From Physcomitrium patens (Eukaryota > Streptophyta > Bryopsida > Funariales > Funariaceae): a DNA stretch of 64,000 bases. Position numbers and translations under genes: made by a program. Within the stretch, counting starts at the first letter, position 1. The number at the start of each line of letters is the position of its first letter. The notes below the pieces were generated by a model, which worked only from the letters and a program-made list of their open reading frames with translations, was not told where the DNA came from and made no database searches. Positions 17,255 to 64,000 of this stretch are shown piece by piece. The stretch spans positions 11,999,463-12,063,462 of the forward strand of contig NC_037260.1 in assembly GCF_000002425.4 (NCBI RefSeq), written 5' to 3'.

Positions 17255-17690
17255 CTTAGGAAGCTTCTCGAGCTACTTCTATTAACTAGGAAGCTTTTAG
17301 AAGGTTCCAGAGGCTTCCTTTCTAGAAGGTTCTAAAAACTTCTTGAGCTACTTCTATTAACTAAGAAGCTTCTAGAAAGTTTCAGGGGATTCCTTTCTAG
17401 AAGCTTCTAGAAACTTCTCTTCTAGAAGGTTTCAGAGACTTCCTTTCTAGAAGCTTCTAGAAACTTCTCTCTAAAAGGTTCCAGAGGCTTCTCTTCTAGA
17501 AGGTTCCAGAGACTTCCTTTCTAAAAGCTTCTAGAAACTTCTCTTCTAGAAGGTTCCAGAGACTTCTTTTCTAGAAGCTTCTAGAAACTTCTCTCTAAAA
17601 GGTTCCAGAGGCTTCTCTTCTAGAAGGTTCCAGAGGCTTGTTTTCTAGAAGGTTCTAGAAACTTCTCTCTAGAAAGTTCTAAGGAATATG
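17255..17690 (-). promoter_or_regulatory. Heat-shock-element array in the A1 LTR U3
   Basis: U3 is built from tandem variants of TTCTAGAAGCTTCTAGAA and TTCTAGAAGGTTCCAGAG. The first is TTCnnGAAnnTTCnnGAA, the canonical heat-shock element. Perfect 18-bp copies are at 17395-17412, 17445-17462 and 17569-17586, with many one-mismatch copies between. The same array fills U3 of the 5' LTR (about 23175-23610) and a shorter one is in A2 (63120-63370). By family knowledge such arrays bind HSF factors and make promoters heat-inducible, as in the Copia element ONSEN; inducibility here is inference. Confidence 0.8.
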
Positions 17691-17699
17691 TCCCTAACA

Positions 17700-17715
17700 T
17701 CATCCCCTCCTTTAG
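17700..17715 (-). other. A1 polypurine tract
   Basis: The minus strand reads CTAAAGGAGGGGATGA immediately before the 3' LTR start TGTTAGGG. This is the expected plus-strand DNA primer site. Confidence 0.8.
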
Positions 17716-17746
17716 CTTCGAGGTCTTTGAGAAGCAATGTTGTTGA

Positions 17747-18216: not shown

Positions 18217-21200
18217 TCATCGAATTGATTTAGATTTATCGGGATGTCGTTGATGAAACTCCTGTACTTTTTGTGGCGCATTCGTAAGATTTTCAGCTGG
18301 CTCCCACGTTCGCTCATTAATGTCATAACCACACCAATGAACAAGATATTCTAACTTTCCCCACCTTCGCTGTGAATCCAATACCTTTTCAACCTCGTAT
18401 TCTTCGTGGTTCTTGATTTCAATACTAGGTGGCGGACATTGCACTCTTCCAGAAAAAGATGACTCTCGATAAGGTTCCAACAGAGAAACATGAAAGACTG
18501 GATGTACCTTCATAGAAGCCGGTAACTCCAGCCGGTATGCTACTGGATTAATTTGCTTCTGGATGATAAATGGTCCCAATCTTCGATAGTCCAACTTATC
18601 ACATGGTCGCTTGGTCTTGATATTTCGTCGAAGAAGCCAGGCTTTGTCTCCAACTTTGAAAGTAGGTGCTGGATTCCGAAATCTATCTGCAGACGTCTTA
18701 TAGGATTCTTTAGCGGATTGTAATTGAAGCTTCAACATAGTTTGAAGCTCTGATAGTTGCTTCGCAAATCCTTCAGCTGTTGGATTGTTATTTGTTGACA
18801 GACTCAATAAATCAAGCTTTGGATGATATCCATAGTTAGAAAAGAATGGTGTTTGTTGAGTCGACGCATGGAGGGTGTTGTTATATGCAAACTCGGCTAG
18901 CGGTAGATATGCAGTCCAATCGTCTTGTTGATAGTTGATGCTGCATCGTAAGTACTGCTCCAAGACTTGGTTCACCCGTTCCATTTGGCCATCAGTTTGA
19001 GGATGAAAAGCTGAAGAAAGCTTGATATCCACCTTCAATATTCCAAAGAGAGATCTCCAAAACTTTGACACGAACTGGGTACCTCAATCTGATATGATAT
19101 CATCTGGTAGTCCATGATATCGATACACATTATCGAGAAAGAGTCTTGCTGTGACTTCACTGGACGATGTCTTCTTACAAGGAACAAAGTGTGCCATCTT
19201 CTTAAGCCGATCTGCCACGACAAAGATGCTGTCAAATGAGTTTGATGATGGCAAGTCCGTGATGAAGTCCATAGAAATTGAAGACCATGGTCGACGTGGA
19301 ATTGGCAATGGCTGTAGAAGTCCATAAGGGCGATGCTGAGGATTCTTAAATCTTGAACAGATGTCACAAGAGAGGACAAAATCTTTCACATCCTTCCACA
19401 TTTGGGGCCACCAAAAATCTCGGGAAATAAGCTCCGAGGTCTTGTTGAATCCAAAATGTCCCGCAGCTGGAAAATCATGGCGAGATTGAAGAACTCGGAG
19501 TCGTGCTAGTCCTTTTGAAATGTACAATCGCTCTTCAAAGTATAAAAGATCTCCCTCCACCTTGAACTTGTCGTCATTGGTACGTTGCTTGATATCAATG
19601 GCTACTGAATCTTTAATGGTCATAGCACGTACCTGGTTTAGGAAGTCAGCATCAAATGATACAATAGTAGCACAAAGTTGAAATCTCTCTGGCTTCAATA
19701 ACGTTGTACATTGTTGATCAAACGCTGCTTCTCCAGCCTTTGGTGCAAGATACGATCTCCTTGATAAAGCATCAGATAGTCCTTGCTGCCTTCCAGGTCG
19801 ATAAGTGATAACAAAATCGAATCTAGATAGCGACATATTCCACCGAGCTTGACGCCAATTTAAAACTCGAGCCGTCATGAAATACTCCAAATTCTTGTGA
19901 TCCGTATATATGGTTACTGGATGTACAGCTCCTTCAAGAAAGTGATGCCATTCTTCGAAAGAATCCACTATAGCAAGAAGTTCCTTATCGTGGATCTCAT
20001 AATTGATTTCAACAGCAGAGAACTTTTGAGAATAGAATGCAACTGGATGGAGCTTCTTATCTTCACTCATTTGTGAAAGCACAGCTCCCAAAGCAAAATC
20101 TGAAGCATCAATTTCTAAATAGAAGGCCTTTGTAAAGTCTGGATGTACCAAAATTGGAGCTGTAGTAAATGCTGTCTTCAAATCTTGAAACGCCTTCTCC
20201 GTCAAAGGTCCCCATTCCAACTTAGCCTTGCATGTTAATCGAGTGAGAGGAGCAGCAACTTGAGAATAATTCTTGATGAAGATCCGATAGAAGTTAGCAA
20301 AACCAAGAAAGCATTGTACGTCTCTAACCGTCTTCGGAACCTCCCAAGACATGATTGCTTCTATTTTCTTGGGGTCCATCTTCAAACCTTCTGTAGTCGC
20401 AATGAACCCCAAAAATTCCATCTCCGTCTAGTGAAATAAACACTTTTCTAATTTGGCATATAGTCCTCGCTTGCGTAGTTTTTTCAAGACCAAACGAACA
20501 TGCTCTTCAAGCTCTTCCTCATTTTTAGAGAATATTAGAATATCGTCCAAGTAGATGACAACAAAATCGTCGAGATGTTCTCGAAAGATGTCATTCATCA
20601 TATGTTGGAAAACTGCTAGAGCATTGGTAAGACCAAAAGGCATGACATTATATTCAAAATGACCATACCTTGTACGGAATGCTGTCTTCTACTCATCTCC
20701 TTCCTTGATTCGTACGACATTATAAGCTCTCCTTAGATCAATTTTTGTAAAGATCTTCGTACGTCCAAGTTGTTCTAAGAGACTAGAAATCAAGGGTAAT
20801 GGGTAACGATTTTTCTTTGTTACCTTTTTGAGGCCTCGATAGTCCACACACATCCGTAATGATCCATCTTTCTTCTTCACAAATAAGATGGGTGCTCCAG
20901 CTGATGATTTTGAATGACGAATGAAGTTTTTGGCTAGATTTTCGTCGATGTACTTTCGTAACTCTACCAACTCCGTTTGCGATAGATTGTAGATTGGGCC
21001 AAAAGGTGGTTGTGCTCCTTCTTGCAAGTCTATGGTACAATCATATGGTCGGTGTTCCGGTAGTATGTCGGCATTCTTCTTTTGAAACACGTCTTCAAAA
21101 TCTTTATATTGCTCCGGTATACTTGCTGTTGAGATCTTCTCCTCGGTAGTTGGAGCCGCATAAATGACAAATGGAGTGCCTTCCTTAGATGATCTTATAA

Positions 21201-21699: not shown

Positions 21700-22718
21700 G
21701 GCTGGGCATCCTTGTTTTCCTGAACAAATACTCCCTTAGTCTTGACTATGCCTCGATTTTACTTTTTGGGGCAGTTTCCGACTTTGTCGCCTTCTCCACC
21801 TCAATACAAGCATAAATTTTCCTCCATACGTTGCTTTTTTTCTTCTATAGTAAGAGATTTGATACGTACCGCATCAATTTACATGTCTTCCACCTCTAAA
21901 TACGAATTCACACCGCTTGCCGACATAGTTGGAGCATGACGAATTGTATGTTGTCTTGAGCGTTGGTCTTGGCGACGTTGGAATAGGCGATTATCGCACT
22001 TCACAGCTTGGCTAATGGCTTCATTGAGCGTTCGTGGATCAGGAAGAGTTAACAGAAAATCCTTCACATCATCTCTTAAATCCCAATAGAATTGACTCAT
22101 CAACGCTTCTTCATTCCAATTGATATTGCATACTAATTGCCTGAAATCCGAAGCATAGACTGATGTAGAACGCATCCCTTGTTGTAGCAACCGGATCTTT
22201 GTTGTAGTCCATCGAACCTTATCGTGTTCACCAAATGCTTCCGCAAATTCTTCCAAAAAGGTTTCGAAATTGTTTAATATGGATGATCGTTTCTCATACA
22301 AAAGAGCAAACCATGATAGAGCTTGTTTCGTAAGTAAGGTTCCAACAAGCCCAACACATGACTCCTCCGTTGGATATCGTTCAGGCTATAAAACTGTTAT
22401 CAACCTGATTTGATTGACAAATCCTCGAAACTTGGAACATGTTCCATCAAACTTATCTGGAAGGCTAACTCGAGGCTCCTTATGTTGTAGAACTAGTGGT
22501 TCTTGTCGAACCTGAGGTAAAGTTGTTTCTCCAAGTGCCGAAATTTGAGGCTGGTGTAGTTTAGATTGTGCTATCCTAGATACTCCATCATTATGAAGCC
22601 TTGCCACCACTCCTTCAATCTCTGCAGTTCTTTGTAATAACGTAGCGAGGGCATTCATAATAGCATCTAACTTAGACTCCGAACTTTCTGTCATACTAAT
22701 GTCTTGACCTCCGGCCAT
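21700..22718 (-). pseudogene. gag: A1 gag
   Basis: Starts at ATG 22718 (MAGGQDISMTESSESKL) or 22694. Blocks are PRVSLPDKFDGTCSKFRGFV, a capsid core (QALSWFALLYEKRSSILNNF, FEAFGEHDK-like), NEAISQAVKCDNRLFQRR, and a zinc knuckle near 21790 (CLY*GGEGDKVGNC). In the knuckle the second Cys codon has become TGA and the His is Asp. A further stop (TAG) is at 22386. It would form the particle shell and bind element RNA. The C2 homologue at 60508 shares the PEKFDGTRSKFQGF block. Confidence 0.85.
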
Positions 22719-22752: not shown

Positions 22753-22857
22753 CAATATTGGTTTATAGGAGGGTAATCCACAACCTATAAAATGCCTTAA
22801 GAATTTCAAGAAGAGGGATAATCTACTCTCTCCAAGAAGAATAAGACTCCAATATTG
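22753..22857 (-). ncRNA. A1 leader RNA cassette 2
   Basis: A 105-nt unit closed by perfect 9-bp arms CAATATTGG and CCAATATTG. Inside lie two hairpins, one with GTAGATTATCC and one (TTTATAGG paired with CCTATAAA) with TGTGGATTACC in the loop. It differs from cassette 1 in arm sequence but keeps pairing. Located between the 5' LTR and gag. Confidence 0.65.
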
Positions 22858-22868
22858 TAACAAAAGAA

Positions 22869-22973
22869 GTATTAGTTTAGAAGAGGGTAATCCGCAACCT
22901 CTAAAAAATGCTAGTATACCTTCAAGTAGAGGGGTAATCCACACTCTACTAAGAAAGAACTAGCTCTGATATC
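22869..22973 (-). ncRNA. A1 leader RNA cassette 1
   Basis: A 105-nt unit starting GATATCAGAGCT and ending CTAATAC (arms partly decayed). The first inner hairpin has arms GTAGAG/CTCTAC at 22926-22949 around TGTGGATTACCC; the second has TTTAGAGG and TCTAAA arms around TTGCGGATTACC. It sits 13 nt inside the primer site. Confidence 0.65.
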
Positions 22974-22985
22974 TCAAGTTAGTGT

Positions 22986-22996
22986 AGTCTCGACAA
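22986..22996 (-). other. A1 self-priming primer-binding site
   Basis: The minus strand reads TTGTCGAGACT, 2 nt inside the 5' LTR. It is an 11-nt perfect complement of AGTCTCGACAA at the predicted RNA 5' end in the 3' LTR (17216-17206). No TGG-initiated tRNA complement is present at this position. Confidence 0.75.
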
Positions 22997-22998
22997 AC

Positions 22999-23617
22999 TG
23001 TCACGGATACAAAATACAGACTTGAAATCTAACAAAAAGTTCAAGAAAAAGTGGCAGAACTAGATTAAACAAATGAGTACAAGAACAACACCAGAAAGGT
23101 GAGCTAGAACTCCAAGAGATGTGTTGTCCAGACTTAAGAACTCTTCAGCCTTGATCCCTATATATACTCCTACTTAGGAAGCTTCTCGAGCTACTTCTAT
23201 TAACTAAGAAGCTTTTAGAAGGTTCCAGAGGCTTCCTTTCTAGAAGGTTCTAAAAACTTCTCGAGCTACTTCTATTAACTAGGAAGCTTCTAGAAAGTTC
23301 CAGAAGATTCCTTTCTAGAAGCTTCTAGAAACTTTTCTTCTAGAAGGTTTCAGAGACTTCCTTTCTAGAAGCTTCTAGAAACTTCTCTCTAAAATGTTCC
23401 AGAGGCTTCTCTTCTAGAAGGTTCCAGAGACTTCCTTTCTAAAAGCTTCTAGAAACTTCTCTTCTAGAAGGTTCCAGAGACTTCTTTTCTAGAAGCTTCT
23501 AGAAACTTCTCTCTAAAAGGTTCCAGAGGCTTCTCTTCTAGAAGGTTCCAGAGGCTTGTTTTCTAGAAGGTTCTAGAAACTACTCTCTAGAAAGTTCTAA
23601 GAAATATGTCCCTAACA
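22999..23617 (-). repeat. A1 5' LTR (619 bp)
   Basis: Same length as the 3' LTR and perhaps 96% identical by eye. Contains the HSE array, TATATATA at 23159-23166, and ends on the plus strand in GTCCCTAACA followed by the GTTCC duplication. Confidence 0.97.
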
Positions 23618-53673: not shown

Positions 53674-53781
53674 ACAATATCAATTTAAAAGAAGGTAATC
53701 CATAACTTCTAATATGCTTATATCTTATCAAGAAAAAGGGGTACTCCACTCTTAATCAAGATTAGACAAAGCTCTGATATT
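53674..53781 (-). ncRNA. C1 leader RNA cassette
   Basis: One unit of 108 nt bounded by AATATCAGAGCT at the LTR side and TTGATATT at the gag side (one arm base decayed). Inner motifs are GTGGAGTACCCC and TATGGATTACC. Same position as in C2. Confidence 0.6.
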
Positions 53782-53789
53782 GTAGGTGT

Positions 53790-53800
53790 ACTCTTGTCAA
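53790..53800 (-). other. C1 self-priming primer-binding site
   Basis: The minus strand reads TTGACAAGAGT, 2 nt inside the 5' LTR, an 11-nt perfect complement of ACTCTTGTCAA at the predicted RNA start (53988-53978). Confidence 0.75.
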
Positions 53801-60593: not shown

Positions 60594-60699
60594 AATATCA
60601 GTTTAGAAGAGGGTTATCCACAACTTCTAATACACTTATATCTTATCAAGAAAAAGGGGTAATCCACTCTTAATCAAGATTAGACAAAGCTCTGATATT
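60594..60699 (-). ncRNA. C2 leader RNA cassette
   Basis: A 106-nt unit closed by perfect 8-bp arms AATATCAG and CTGATATT. The second inner hairpin pairs TTAGAAG with CTTCTAA around TTGTGGATAACC; the first contains GTGGATTACCCC between AAGAG and CTTTTT. Nine nt inside the primer site. Confidence 0.65.
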
Positions 60700-60707
60700 G
60701 TAGGTGT

Positions 60708-60718
60708 ACTCTTGTCAA
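60708..60718 (-). other. C2 self-priming primer-binding site
   Basis: TTGACAAGAGT on the minus strand, 2 nt inside the LTR, perfect complement of ACTCTTGTCAA at 60906-60896, which lies 31 nt from TATATATA (60930-60937). Confidence 0.75.
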
Positions 60719-63098: not shown

Positions 63099-63573
63099 TG
63101 TTAGGGACATAGTCCTTAGACCTTTCTAGACACAAGTTTCTAGAACCTTCTAGAAAGAAGTCTCCAGAAACTTCCAGAAGATTCCTTGAATATTCTCTTA
63201 GAATATTCTTCAAAGATTTCCTAAAGATTCTTTGAAGATTCCCTAAAGATTTCCTTAGAAAGCTCTAGAACATTCTTAGAATATTCTAGTAGATTCTAGG
63301 AAGTTACTTGAGAAGCTTCCTAGCTCTTGGATAGTTGCTCGAGAAGCTTCATAGTTCTTGGGAAGCTTCTTGATGCACTTCTTTAGAACCATAGGCCAGT
63401 AGTATATATAGGAGTCGAGGCTGAAGAGTTCTTCAGTCTCGACAACGCATCTCTTGAAGCTCTAGCTCAATTTTCTTGGCGTTGCTCTTGTACTCATCTG
63501 ATAATCTAGTTCTTGTCATTTCTTCTTGAACTTCTTGTTTAGATTTCTTGTTTGTATTTTTTGGTCCGTGACA
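63099..63573 (+). repeat. A2 5' LTR (475 bp)
   Basis: Starts TGTTAGGGACATAG and ends GGTCCGTGACA, the A-family termini. It has HSE-like copies near 63120-63370 (for example TTCTAGAACCTTCTAGAA at about 63129), TATATATA at 63403-63410 and the predicted RNA start AGTCTCGACAA at 63435. It is shorter than A1 because the U3 array is smaller. The element body continues beyond the window. Confidence 0.9.
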
Positions 63574-63575
63574 GT

Positions 63576-63586
63576 TTGTCGAGACT
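63576..63586 (+). other. A2 self-priming primer-binding site
   Basis: TTGTCGAGACT, 2 nt after the LTR, perfect 11-nt complement of the predicted RNA 5' end at 63435-63445. Confidence 0.78.
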
Positions 63587-63597
63587 ACCTTTATCTT

Positions 63598-63701
63598 AAT
63601 ATCAGAGCTGAATCCTTCTTGTTTGAGAGCGGATTACCCCTCTTCTTGAAGGTATTTTAGCGCTTTAGGGGTTGCGGATTACCCTCCTCTAAACTGATAT
63701 T
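63598..63701 (+). ncRNA. A2 leader RNA cassette 1
   Basis: 104 nt, arms AATATCAG and CTGATATT. Inner motifs AGCGGATTACCCC and TTGCGGATTACCC, the latter within TTTAGGGG/CTCTAAA arms. Confidence 0.7.
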
Positions 63702-63712
63702 TTTTCAATCAC

Positions 63713-63816
63713 AATATCAGAGCTTAGTTCTTTGAGGCAGAGAGTGGACTACCCCTTTCCTTGGAGATACTTGAGCGTTCTAAGGGTTGCGGATTACCCT
63801 CTCTTGGACTGATATT
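63713..63816 (+). ncRNA. A2 leader RNA cassette 2
   Basis: 104 nt, arms AATATCAG and CTGATATT. Inner motifs AGTGGACTACCCC and TTGCGGATTACCC. Confidence 0.7.
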
Positions 63817-63864
63817 AATTCCTTCTTTTTGTTTAGCATAGCTAGTAGAAAAGACTGTTAACAT

Positions 63865-63971
63865 CGATTTCAGAGCTTTGCCTTCTTGATAGAGTGCGGA
63901 TTATCCCTCTTCTCGAAAGCATTGAGGCATTTTTAGAGGTTGCGGATTACCCTCTTCTAAAACTGAAATCG
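63865..63971 (+). ncRNA. A2 leader RNA cassette 3
   Basis: 107 nt, arms CGATTTCAG and CTGAAATCG; both arms changed relative to cassettes 1 and 2, so pairing is kept. Inner motifs TGCGGATTATCCC and TTGCGGATTACCC. Confidence 0.7.
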
Positions 63972-63974
63972 TTT

Positions 63975-64000
63975 AGTGTTTTTTTTTTTTTTTTTTTTTT
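63975..64000 (+). repeat. Poly-T run at the window end
   Basis: About 25 consecutive T in the A2 leader. It could be real or an assembly artefact; the window stops inside it. Confidence 0.8.

Follow-up and report, generated by a model that had tools for sequence, protein, structure and literature searches.

The window, by which we mean the whole stretch of 64,000 nucleotides of Physcomitrium patens DNA analysed here, lies within contig C8 of the genome that we scanned (470 Mb in 101 contigs). It contains seven structured units in four chromovirus copies (A1, A2, C1 and C2), all of them between the primer-binding site and gag. A2 lies on the forward strand and has unit 1 at 63598..63701 (a three-way junction RNA with two hairpin tips; R1 bits 115.4), unit 2 at 63713..63816 (its first tip has the loop ACUA) and unit 3 at 63865..63971 (closing arms CGATTTCAG/CTGAAATCG). 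The other copies lie on the reverse strand. A1 has unit 1 at 22869..22973, with a degraded closing stem in the window copy, and unit 2 at 22753..22857 (closing arms CAATATTGG/CCAATATTG), while C1 and C2 have a sole unit each, at 53674..53781 and 60594..60699. Each unit is identified by a profile match and by its fold.

A sequence-only reading had already placed seven units in four elements at these positions. Our profile agrees: built from the seven units, it matched exactly those seven in the window. The same reading had named absence of the units from other family members as one of the findings that would speak against it. The profile gave 165 full-length matches (88 loci and the window; L089 excluded), 6 of which are repeat views of window copies. 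The number of units per leader ranges from 1 to 3 and the number of tips from 2 to 6. No Rfam family matched the window at its gathering score. A long run of T (63979-64000) follows A2 unit 3, as it likewise does in locus L001.

In A1, the Chromo, Tf2-1-like SH3, RNase H and integrase zinc-binding domains pass the Pfam cut-offs and the reverse transcriptase falls just under. The Chromo domain comes after the integrase (E 8.4e-17; window positions 18217-19071). The gag start codon of A1 lies at 22716..22718 on the reverse strand, 34 nt past the last unit, and the related frame in L032 matches Retrotrans_gag. The LTRs of A1 are 96.6% identical over 620 nt and end in CCGTGACA. Both of them also hold a run of tandem repeats of about 25 nt (17295-17742 and 23287-23611).

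Priming of the elements

In A2, the putative RNA 5' end and self-primer (AGTCTCGACAA, 63435..63445, forward strand) lies 32 nt after the start of a TATATA box. Its complement, the primer-binding site TTGTCGAGACT, lies at 63576..63586 and the LTR ends at 63573. On the reverse strand, A1 has TTGTCGAGACT at 22986..22996 (LTR end 22999), and the perfect complement in its LTR is only 6 nt long. C2 has the site TTGACAAGAGT at 60708..60718 and the self-primer ACTCTTGTCAA in its LTR, and C1 has TTGACAAGAGT at 53790..53800. Overall, 89 of 96 sources (a figure in which window copies count twice) have a recognisable primer-binding site at the edge of the LTR. The perfect LTR complement measures 11-13 nt in 61 of the 89 and is shorter in 28, window A1 included. 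A TATATA box is close by in 71 of the 89, 29-36 nt before the complement. The self-primer is AGTCTCGACAA in A-, E- and F-type elements and ACTCTTGTCAA in C- and G-type elements (E, F and G are family names coined in the present analysis), and the site changes along with the primer. The arrangement is that of self-priming in the manner of Tf1, a kind already predicted for the majority of the Tcn1 clade (PMC6317226, in excerpt).

The dinucleotide that follows the 11-nt site is AC in 70 of the 89 sources and TC, AT, GA, GC, GT or CC in the others. This variability could arise if plus-strand synthesis loosely copies the capped 5' end of the primer. The first unit of F-type elements starts with what we take to be the 12-nt primer-site sequence of tRNA-iMet, and the match is exact in L070, L071, L077 and L087. 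Priming by tRNA-iMet was rejected for this family, because in the two elements whose 3' LTR was included (L070 and L087) the LTR ends 23 nt upstream, at GTGACA. The match may be a relic or a coincidence.

One could argue that the units are themselves part of the self-priming machinery, folding the leader so that the 5' end of the RNA reaches the primer-binding site. The many sources with a primer site and an 11-13 nt complement would fit this idea, as would the start of A2 unit 1, 24 nt after the LTR end. We nevertheless consider it quite improbable. Pairing needs the short complement alone, and in more than a quarter of the sources with a site even that complement is reduced. Furthermore, a mere spacer would need neither a variable number of units nor the nearly frozen loops described below.

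Fold and covariation

Each of the seven window units folds better than its shuffles (z from -2.1 to -3.5; 0 to 4 of 200 shuffles equal it). In six of the seven units the minimum-energy fold is a three-way junction of one type, in which a closing stem encloses a long hairpin on the 5' side and a short one on the 3' side, with conserved sequence tipping both hairpins. The exception is A1 unit 1, whose closing stem (GATATCAG versus CTAATAC) is degraded in the window copy and is missing from the minimum-energy fold. Some units also have an alternative fold of hairpin 1 with a five-base loop. It had been claimed that the closing arms vary between units and yet stay complementary. The arms quoted for this claim are correct for their units, as are the inner hairpin arms for theirs, and A1 unit 1 is where the closing stem has decayed.

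For the covariation analysis we aligned 48 of 102 distinct units (7 from the window, 35 from 20 loci and 6 others). RNAalifold predicts 33 pairs, in 21 of which both sides change. The predicted structure pairs in 95.7% of 1582 cells, compared with at most 61.2% when it is slid by 1-3 columns. Since a structure should not be tested on its own source, we also took the minimum-energy fold of a single unit and tested it on the other 47 units against simulations along the tree. With the fold of A2 unit 1, 92.5% of the cells are paired (tree null 74.4, sd 2.2), 14 double changes fall on the same branch (null 4.5, largest 13) and 22 pairs have kept double changes (null 12.6). In each case, 0 of 1000 simulations were as high. 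The same is true for all three measures when A1 unit 2 or C2 supplies the fold. Of the 14 double changes, six are GC to AT in one or two copies, possibly due to methylation decay, and the remaining eight by themselves would fall short of the largest simulated value (13, with every kind of double change included; mean 4.5).

When the pairs are tested one by one with our own R-scape-like script and the tree null, 2 of 33 reach E<0.05, and several unpaired column pairs outscore pairs of the structure. Single pairs have little statistical power here. The covariation test that the sequence-only reading had called for has a divided outcome: covariation is clear for the whole structure and weak pair by pair.

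The changes that break Watson-Crick pairs on one side are informative about the strand. About 55 of them lead to G·U and about 18 to A·C (p 1.7e-5), and on inner branches alone the numbers are 24 and 5 (p 5e-4); the test used the RNAalifold structure from the same alignment and leans towards G·U. The excess of G·U over A·C indicates that the sense RNA is the folded molecule. A structured RNA under selection is what had been proposed. Our results support this, for the sense RNA and for the leaders of several families, and both the transfer of a single fold to 47 other units and the sense-strand G·U bias bear it out.

Two further explanations have to be weighed against these data. First, the motif could be a repeated DNA binding site that acts as an enhancer downstream of the start site, in which case the RNA fold would be incidental. 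GGATTA-like sequences are bound by some DNA-binding proteins, and the units contain such sequences in repeated copies. However, a DNA cruciform would show no G·U bias, and the bias together with the compensatory changes in the stems indicates a sense RNA. An enhancer is hence very unlikely. Second, the units could be neutral tandem duplications without any function. The elements are repeats, after all, and many copies have decayed. Neutral duplications would have to account for the covariation, the G·U bias and the nearly frozen tips, as well as for the persistence of the units in five clusters and in family G. We find such an explanation barely conceivable.

The hairpin tips

Both hairpins of most units end in G-Y-GG-ANUA-CC-C, where the Y is bulged. 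In the 204 cells provided by the 102 distinct units, loop bases 1, 3 and 4 are A, U and A in 204, 203 and 204 cases, respectively, and the bulged base is a pyrimidine (C or U) in all 204. Loop base 2 varies and can be U, C or G.

In the window, the tip GCGGATTACCC occurs on the forward strand twice in A2 unit 1 (63629..63639 and 63674..63684) and as the second tip of A2 units 2 (63789..63799) and 3 (63942..63952), and on the reverse strand as the second tip of A1 unit 1 (22885..22895). The first tips of A2 units 2 and 3 are GTGGACTACCC (63744..63754) and GCGGATTATCC (63896..63906, one change in the window copy). All remaining tips lie on the reverse strand. GTGGATTACCC forms the first tip of A1 unit 1 (22932..22942), the second tip of A1 unit 2 (22771..22781) and the first tip of C2 (60657..60667), and GTGGAGTACCC is the first tip of C1 (53739..53749). 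Two tips are degraded, the first of A1 unit 2 (GTAGATTATCC, 22816..22826; absent from the motif matches in the window) and the second of C1 (ATGGATTACCT, 53693..53703). In the second tip of C2 (GTGGATAACCC, 60611..60621) the third loop base is changed in the window copy. The motif GNGGANYACCC is matched 10 times in the window, and all 10 matches lie inside units, whereas about 0.25 would be expected from base composition. GYGGATTACC, which had been described as constant, is exact in 8 of the 14 window tips, and the six others carry one or two changes.

The genome as a whole shows the same pattern of constraint. Where hairpin 1 is canonical, hairpin 2 is changed at loop bases 1, 2, 3 and 4 in 7, 713, 5 and 5 places, respectively (the patterns behind these four counts accept both C and T close to the 3' end, unlike the canonical pattern with 3404 matches described below). 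Among the listed matches of the 713, three have the loop ACUA, two AAUA and the rest AGUA. The 713 changes at base 2 are a few ancestral events amplified by copying, and multi-copy changes at this base are found in three lineages. In hairpin 1 of A2 unit 2, base 2 is C in 4 of 5 and G in 1 of 5. In hairpin 2 of the second units of E and F, it is G in 15 of the 30 units of the cluster. In family G, hairpin 2 has the loop ACUA. At loop bases 1, 3 and 4 we saw no multi-copy changes. Bases 1, 3 and 4 are nearly frozen and base 2 is free, which suggests that a partner recognises bases 1, 3 and 4.

Could this partner be another copy of the same RNA? Retroviral leaders dimerise via hairpins, and with this precedent the tips might be kissing loops for RNA dimerisation. 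Such loops should be able to pair with each other, but AUUA, AGUA and ACUA are not self-complementary, and loop base 2 changes in one hairpin while the other hairpin of the unit remains unchanged. For these two reasons we ruled out kissing-loop dimerisation on loop sequence and hold it to be extremely unlikely. Of the roles suggested earlier for the unit, namely packaging, dimerisation or translation control, dimerisation by way of the tips is thus unlikely.

Spread of the units and family G

Genome-wide, a search for two tips at a distance of 24-50 nt gives 3404 matches (1728 + 1676), whereas its reversed control gives none. With 3404 exact matches against 0, the hairpin pairs are not due to chance. 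The leaders of A2, A1 and C2, used as queries, each have at least 40 genome matches at 97% identity or more, and their true copy numbers are above 40. At a distance of 0.2, the 102 distinct units fall into five clusters: unit 1 of the A1, E and F types together with A2 unit 1 (n=36), unit 2 of A1, E and F (n=30), C-type units (n=27), A2 unit 2 (n=5) and A2 unit 3 (n=4). Among viral contigs, the pattern in its form starting with GTGG (as opposed to GCGG) had one match, which lacks the unit fold. Among prokaryote contigs six stretches matched, and the five inspected (L100 is the sixth) are unrelated tandem repeats.

Family G is small and divergent and was reached via its ACUA tip. One pattern places it at 12 positions in the genome, one of which looks E-like, and its tips come in the same order as in the other units. 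A covariance model built from aligned units finds, in addition to the 7 window units, 18 matches at E<=1e-6 that lie in 9 of the 12 G-type loci. Three weaker matches have E values of 0.017, 0.16 and 0.53, and the last two of them lie in LTR repeats of the window. Nine G units from 4 of the 12 loci were compared helix by helix. Eight of them lack helix 2, pairing in the closing helix is down to 68.5% of cells, and the remaining three helices are paired in 89-100%; the G alignment was fitted to the covariance model, and these figures lean towards the model. One G-type leader (L109) has three tandem units.

The cassette of about 105 nt with its closing stem is not what stays constant, as family G shows. 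This family keeps the two tips but has lost the lower stem and, to a large extent, the closing stem. Hence, it looks as if the pair of tips, and not the junction, is the functional core.

Proposed Gag binding and a possible role in translation

The Gag proteins of these elements match the Retrotrans_gag and Ty3_capsid families. Gag has one CCHC zinc knuckle, whose C, C, H and C are invariant in 13 aligned Gags, and the CLYC pattern of the knuckle is present in 42 of 68 loci scanned. The Pfam match to the knuckle stays under the cut-off in L002 (17.2 versus 20.8 bits), and L032 has none. Public data contain 267 protein relatives of Gag (at least 120 listed). In viral contigs a Gag peptide pattern matched 115 stretches, none of which encodes a relative. 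In the related element Ty3, packaging of the RNA depends critically on the knuckle (PMC4974528, in excerpt).

We propose that the paired hairpins are protein-binding sites, and most likely sites at which Gag would bind the genomic RNA for packaging. We give this reading a probability of about one in two. Our computations establish that the RNA folds, that the fold is conserved on the sense strand, that the loop is nearly frozen, that the tips come in pairs and that they lie between primer site and gag. Protein binding, Gag as the binder and packaging as the outcome are what we infer. In favour of a protein-binding site, the tip has a nearly frozen loop and stays the same while the stems around it change, it matches the MS2 operator core but for the bulge, and the units are found in the leader beside the primer site. 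The leader RNA would then present 2 to 6 tips in pairs, usually on a three-way junction, and the likeliest binder would be the element's own Gag, acting through its one CCHC zinc knuckle. Gag bound to paired tips would select the genomic RNA for packaging. When abundant, Gag might in addition halt scanning ribosomes ahead of gag. Against Gag speaks that, by the families it matches, it is not related to the MS2 coat protein, whose binding site the tips resemble (see below).

A host RNA-binding protein fits the sequence facts equally well, although nothing points to one. Alternatively, the tips could directly control the translation of gag. Either possibility would mean that the tips do not serve packaging. 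Evidence on translation comes from the start codons in the leaders. One selected leader each of the A2 (671 nt), E (417 nt), F (440 nt) and C (397 nt) types is free of ATGs up to its first start codon, and shuffles reach this in 1, 6, 18 and 15 of 1000 cases, respectively; in the F leader the first start codon opens just 86 codons and its identity as gag is tentative. ATG-free leaders of about 400-670 nt were seen in L006, L086, L077 and L078. In five copies, moreover, the first start codon follows the last tip by 57-165 nt. Several leaders without an upstream ATG fit scanning translation, and hence a translational role as well. However, upstream ATGs are present in L002, L015, L032, L072 and L094, the last of which is a G copy with two. 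In the A1 copy L010 the first ATG comes 416 nt into the leader, and in L015 and L032 there is an earlier one. Furthermore, in 12 of 14 copies (L041 and L047 gave no self-primer) 190-240 nt separate the putative 5' end of the RNA from the first tip, a long way for a block close to the cap. A host protein or translation control in place of packaging is therefore possible but rather unlikely.

Little is understood, to our knowledge, about the way in which plant LTR retrotransposons select the RNA that they package. The tip described here is well defined, repeated and base-specific, and the genome contains thousands of copies of it. The family that carries it is expressed in a moss that is simple to grow, and the tip provides a candidate binding site together with single-base controls for a packaging test. 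In Physcomitrium patens, 5092 complete RLG1 elements, a chromodomain gypsy family, have been counted, and RLG1 expression is reported from the protonema (PMC7466625, in excerpt). Users of MS2 tagging in this moss should bear in mind that native transcripts may carry MS2-like hairpins.

Comparison with known systems

It had been stated that the unit has no described counterpart. This does not apply to its tip, which is the core of the MS2 coat-protein operator apart from the bulge. In NC_001417.2 the operator surrounds the replicase start at 1761, and the bulge is the sole position at which its core GAGGAUUACCC and the tip differ. Folded with one program, the MS2 operator, hairpin 2 of the unit and two family G hairpins take on the same tip fold. 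Both have a tetraloop closed by two G-C pairs, then a single bulged base and then a G-C pair. The loop rule of the MS2 operator is A-N-Y-A, with a free second base. The tips have this ANYA tetraloop closed by GG/CC, and in nearly all cells it is A-N-U-A. Excerpts of a preprint on MS2 (PMC12803234) give the consensus as GAGGAU(C/U)ACCC, with loop base 2 kept constant in the library. According to the same excerpts, the coat protein accepts every bulge base but G, altering just one of the contacted bases weakens the binding signal markedly, and very short stems bind inefficiently.

There are also clear differences. The bulge is A in the MS2 operator and C or U in all 204 retroelement tips. The MS2 hairpin contains the replicase start codon, whereas the retroelement tips lie upstream of the start of the first long frame. 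Unlike the operator, the tips come in several copies and in pairs, in the leader of a eukaryotic retroelement. Finally, the Gag proteins match retrotransposon gag families and not the coat protein of a phage (MS2 is Emesvirus zinderi of the Fiersviridae). Because Gag matches Retrotrans_gag and Ty3_capsid, the resemblance is a likeness and not homology. The elements may have reached the MS2 recognition code independently, so that Gag, or a Gag dimer, would read the paired tips as a packaging operator and the MS2 coat protein itself would bind them. We offer this as a tentative idea that is on the unlikely side.

With the Tcn1-clade chromoviruses of mosses and clubmosses, which are relatives of Tf1/sushi, our elements share a chromodomain integrase and a self-priming site. 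For a Selaginella element in which no primer site was found, conservation of a T-rich stretch has been noted in the interval from the 5' LTR to gag (PMC2864245, in excerpt). The excerpted parts of PMC6317226 and PMC2864245 mention no structured repeat unit or hairpin motif, and as far as our searches of the open-licence PubMed Central literature and its excerpts go, LTR retrotransposons have not been described as carrying units or tips of this kind. Sireviruses also have repeated conserved non-coding motifs in plant LTR elements. These motifs differ in sequence and lie in the LTRs and near the polypurine tract, and leader hairpins are not mentioned in the excerpts of that paper (PMC2829016).

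Retroviral and Ty packaging signals are likewise RNA sites in or near the leader, and in Ty3 Gag has a zinc knuckle (PMC4974528, in excerpt). The moss elements have a conserved structured leader RNA near gag and a knuckle in Gag (with its Pfam match below the cut-off). A repeated unit with an MS2-type tip is not mentioned for these signals in the same excerpts. Leader RNA signals are known as a kind, and among them a tip that has probably converged on that of MS2 would be unusual.
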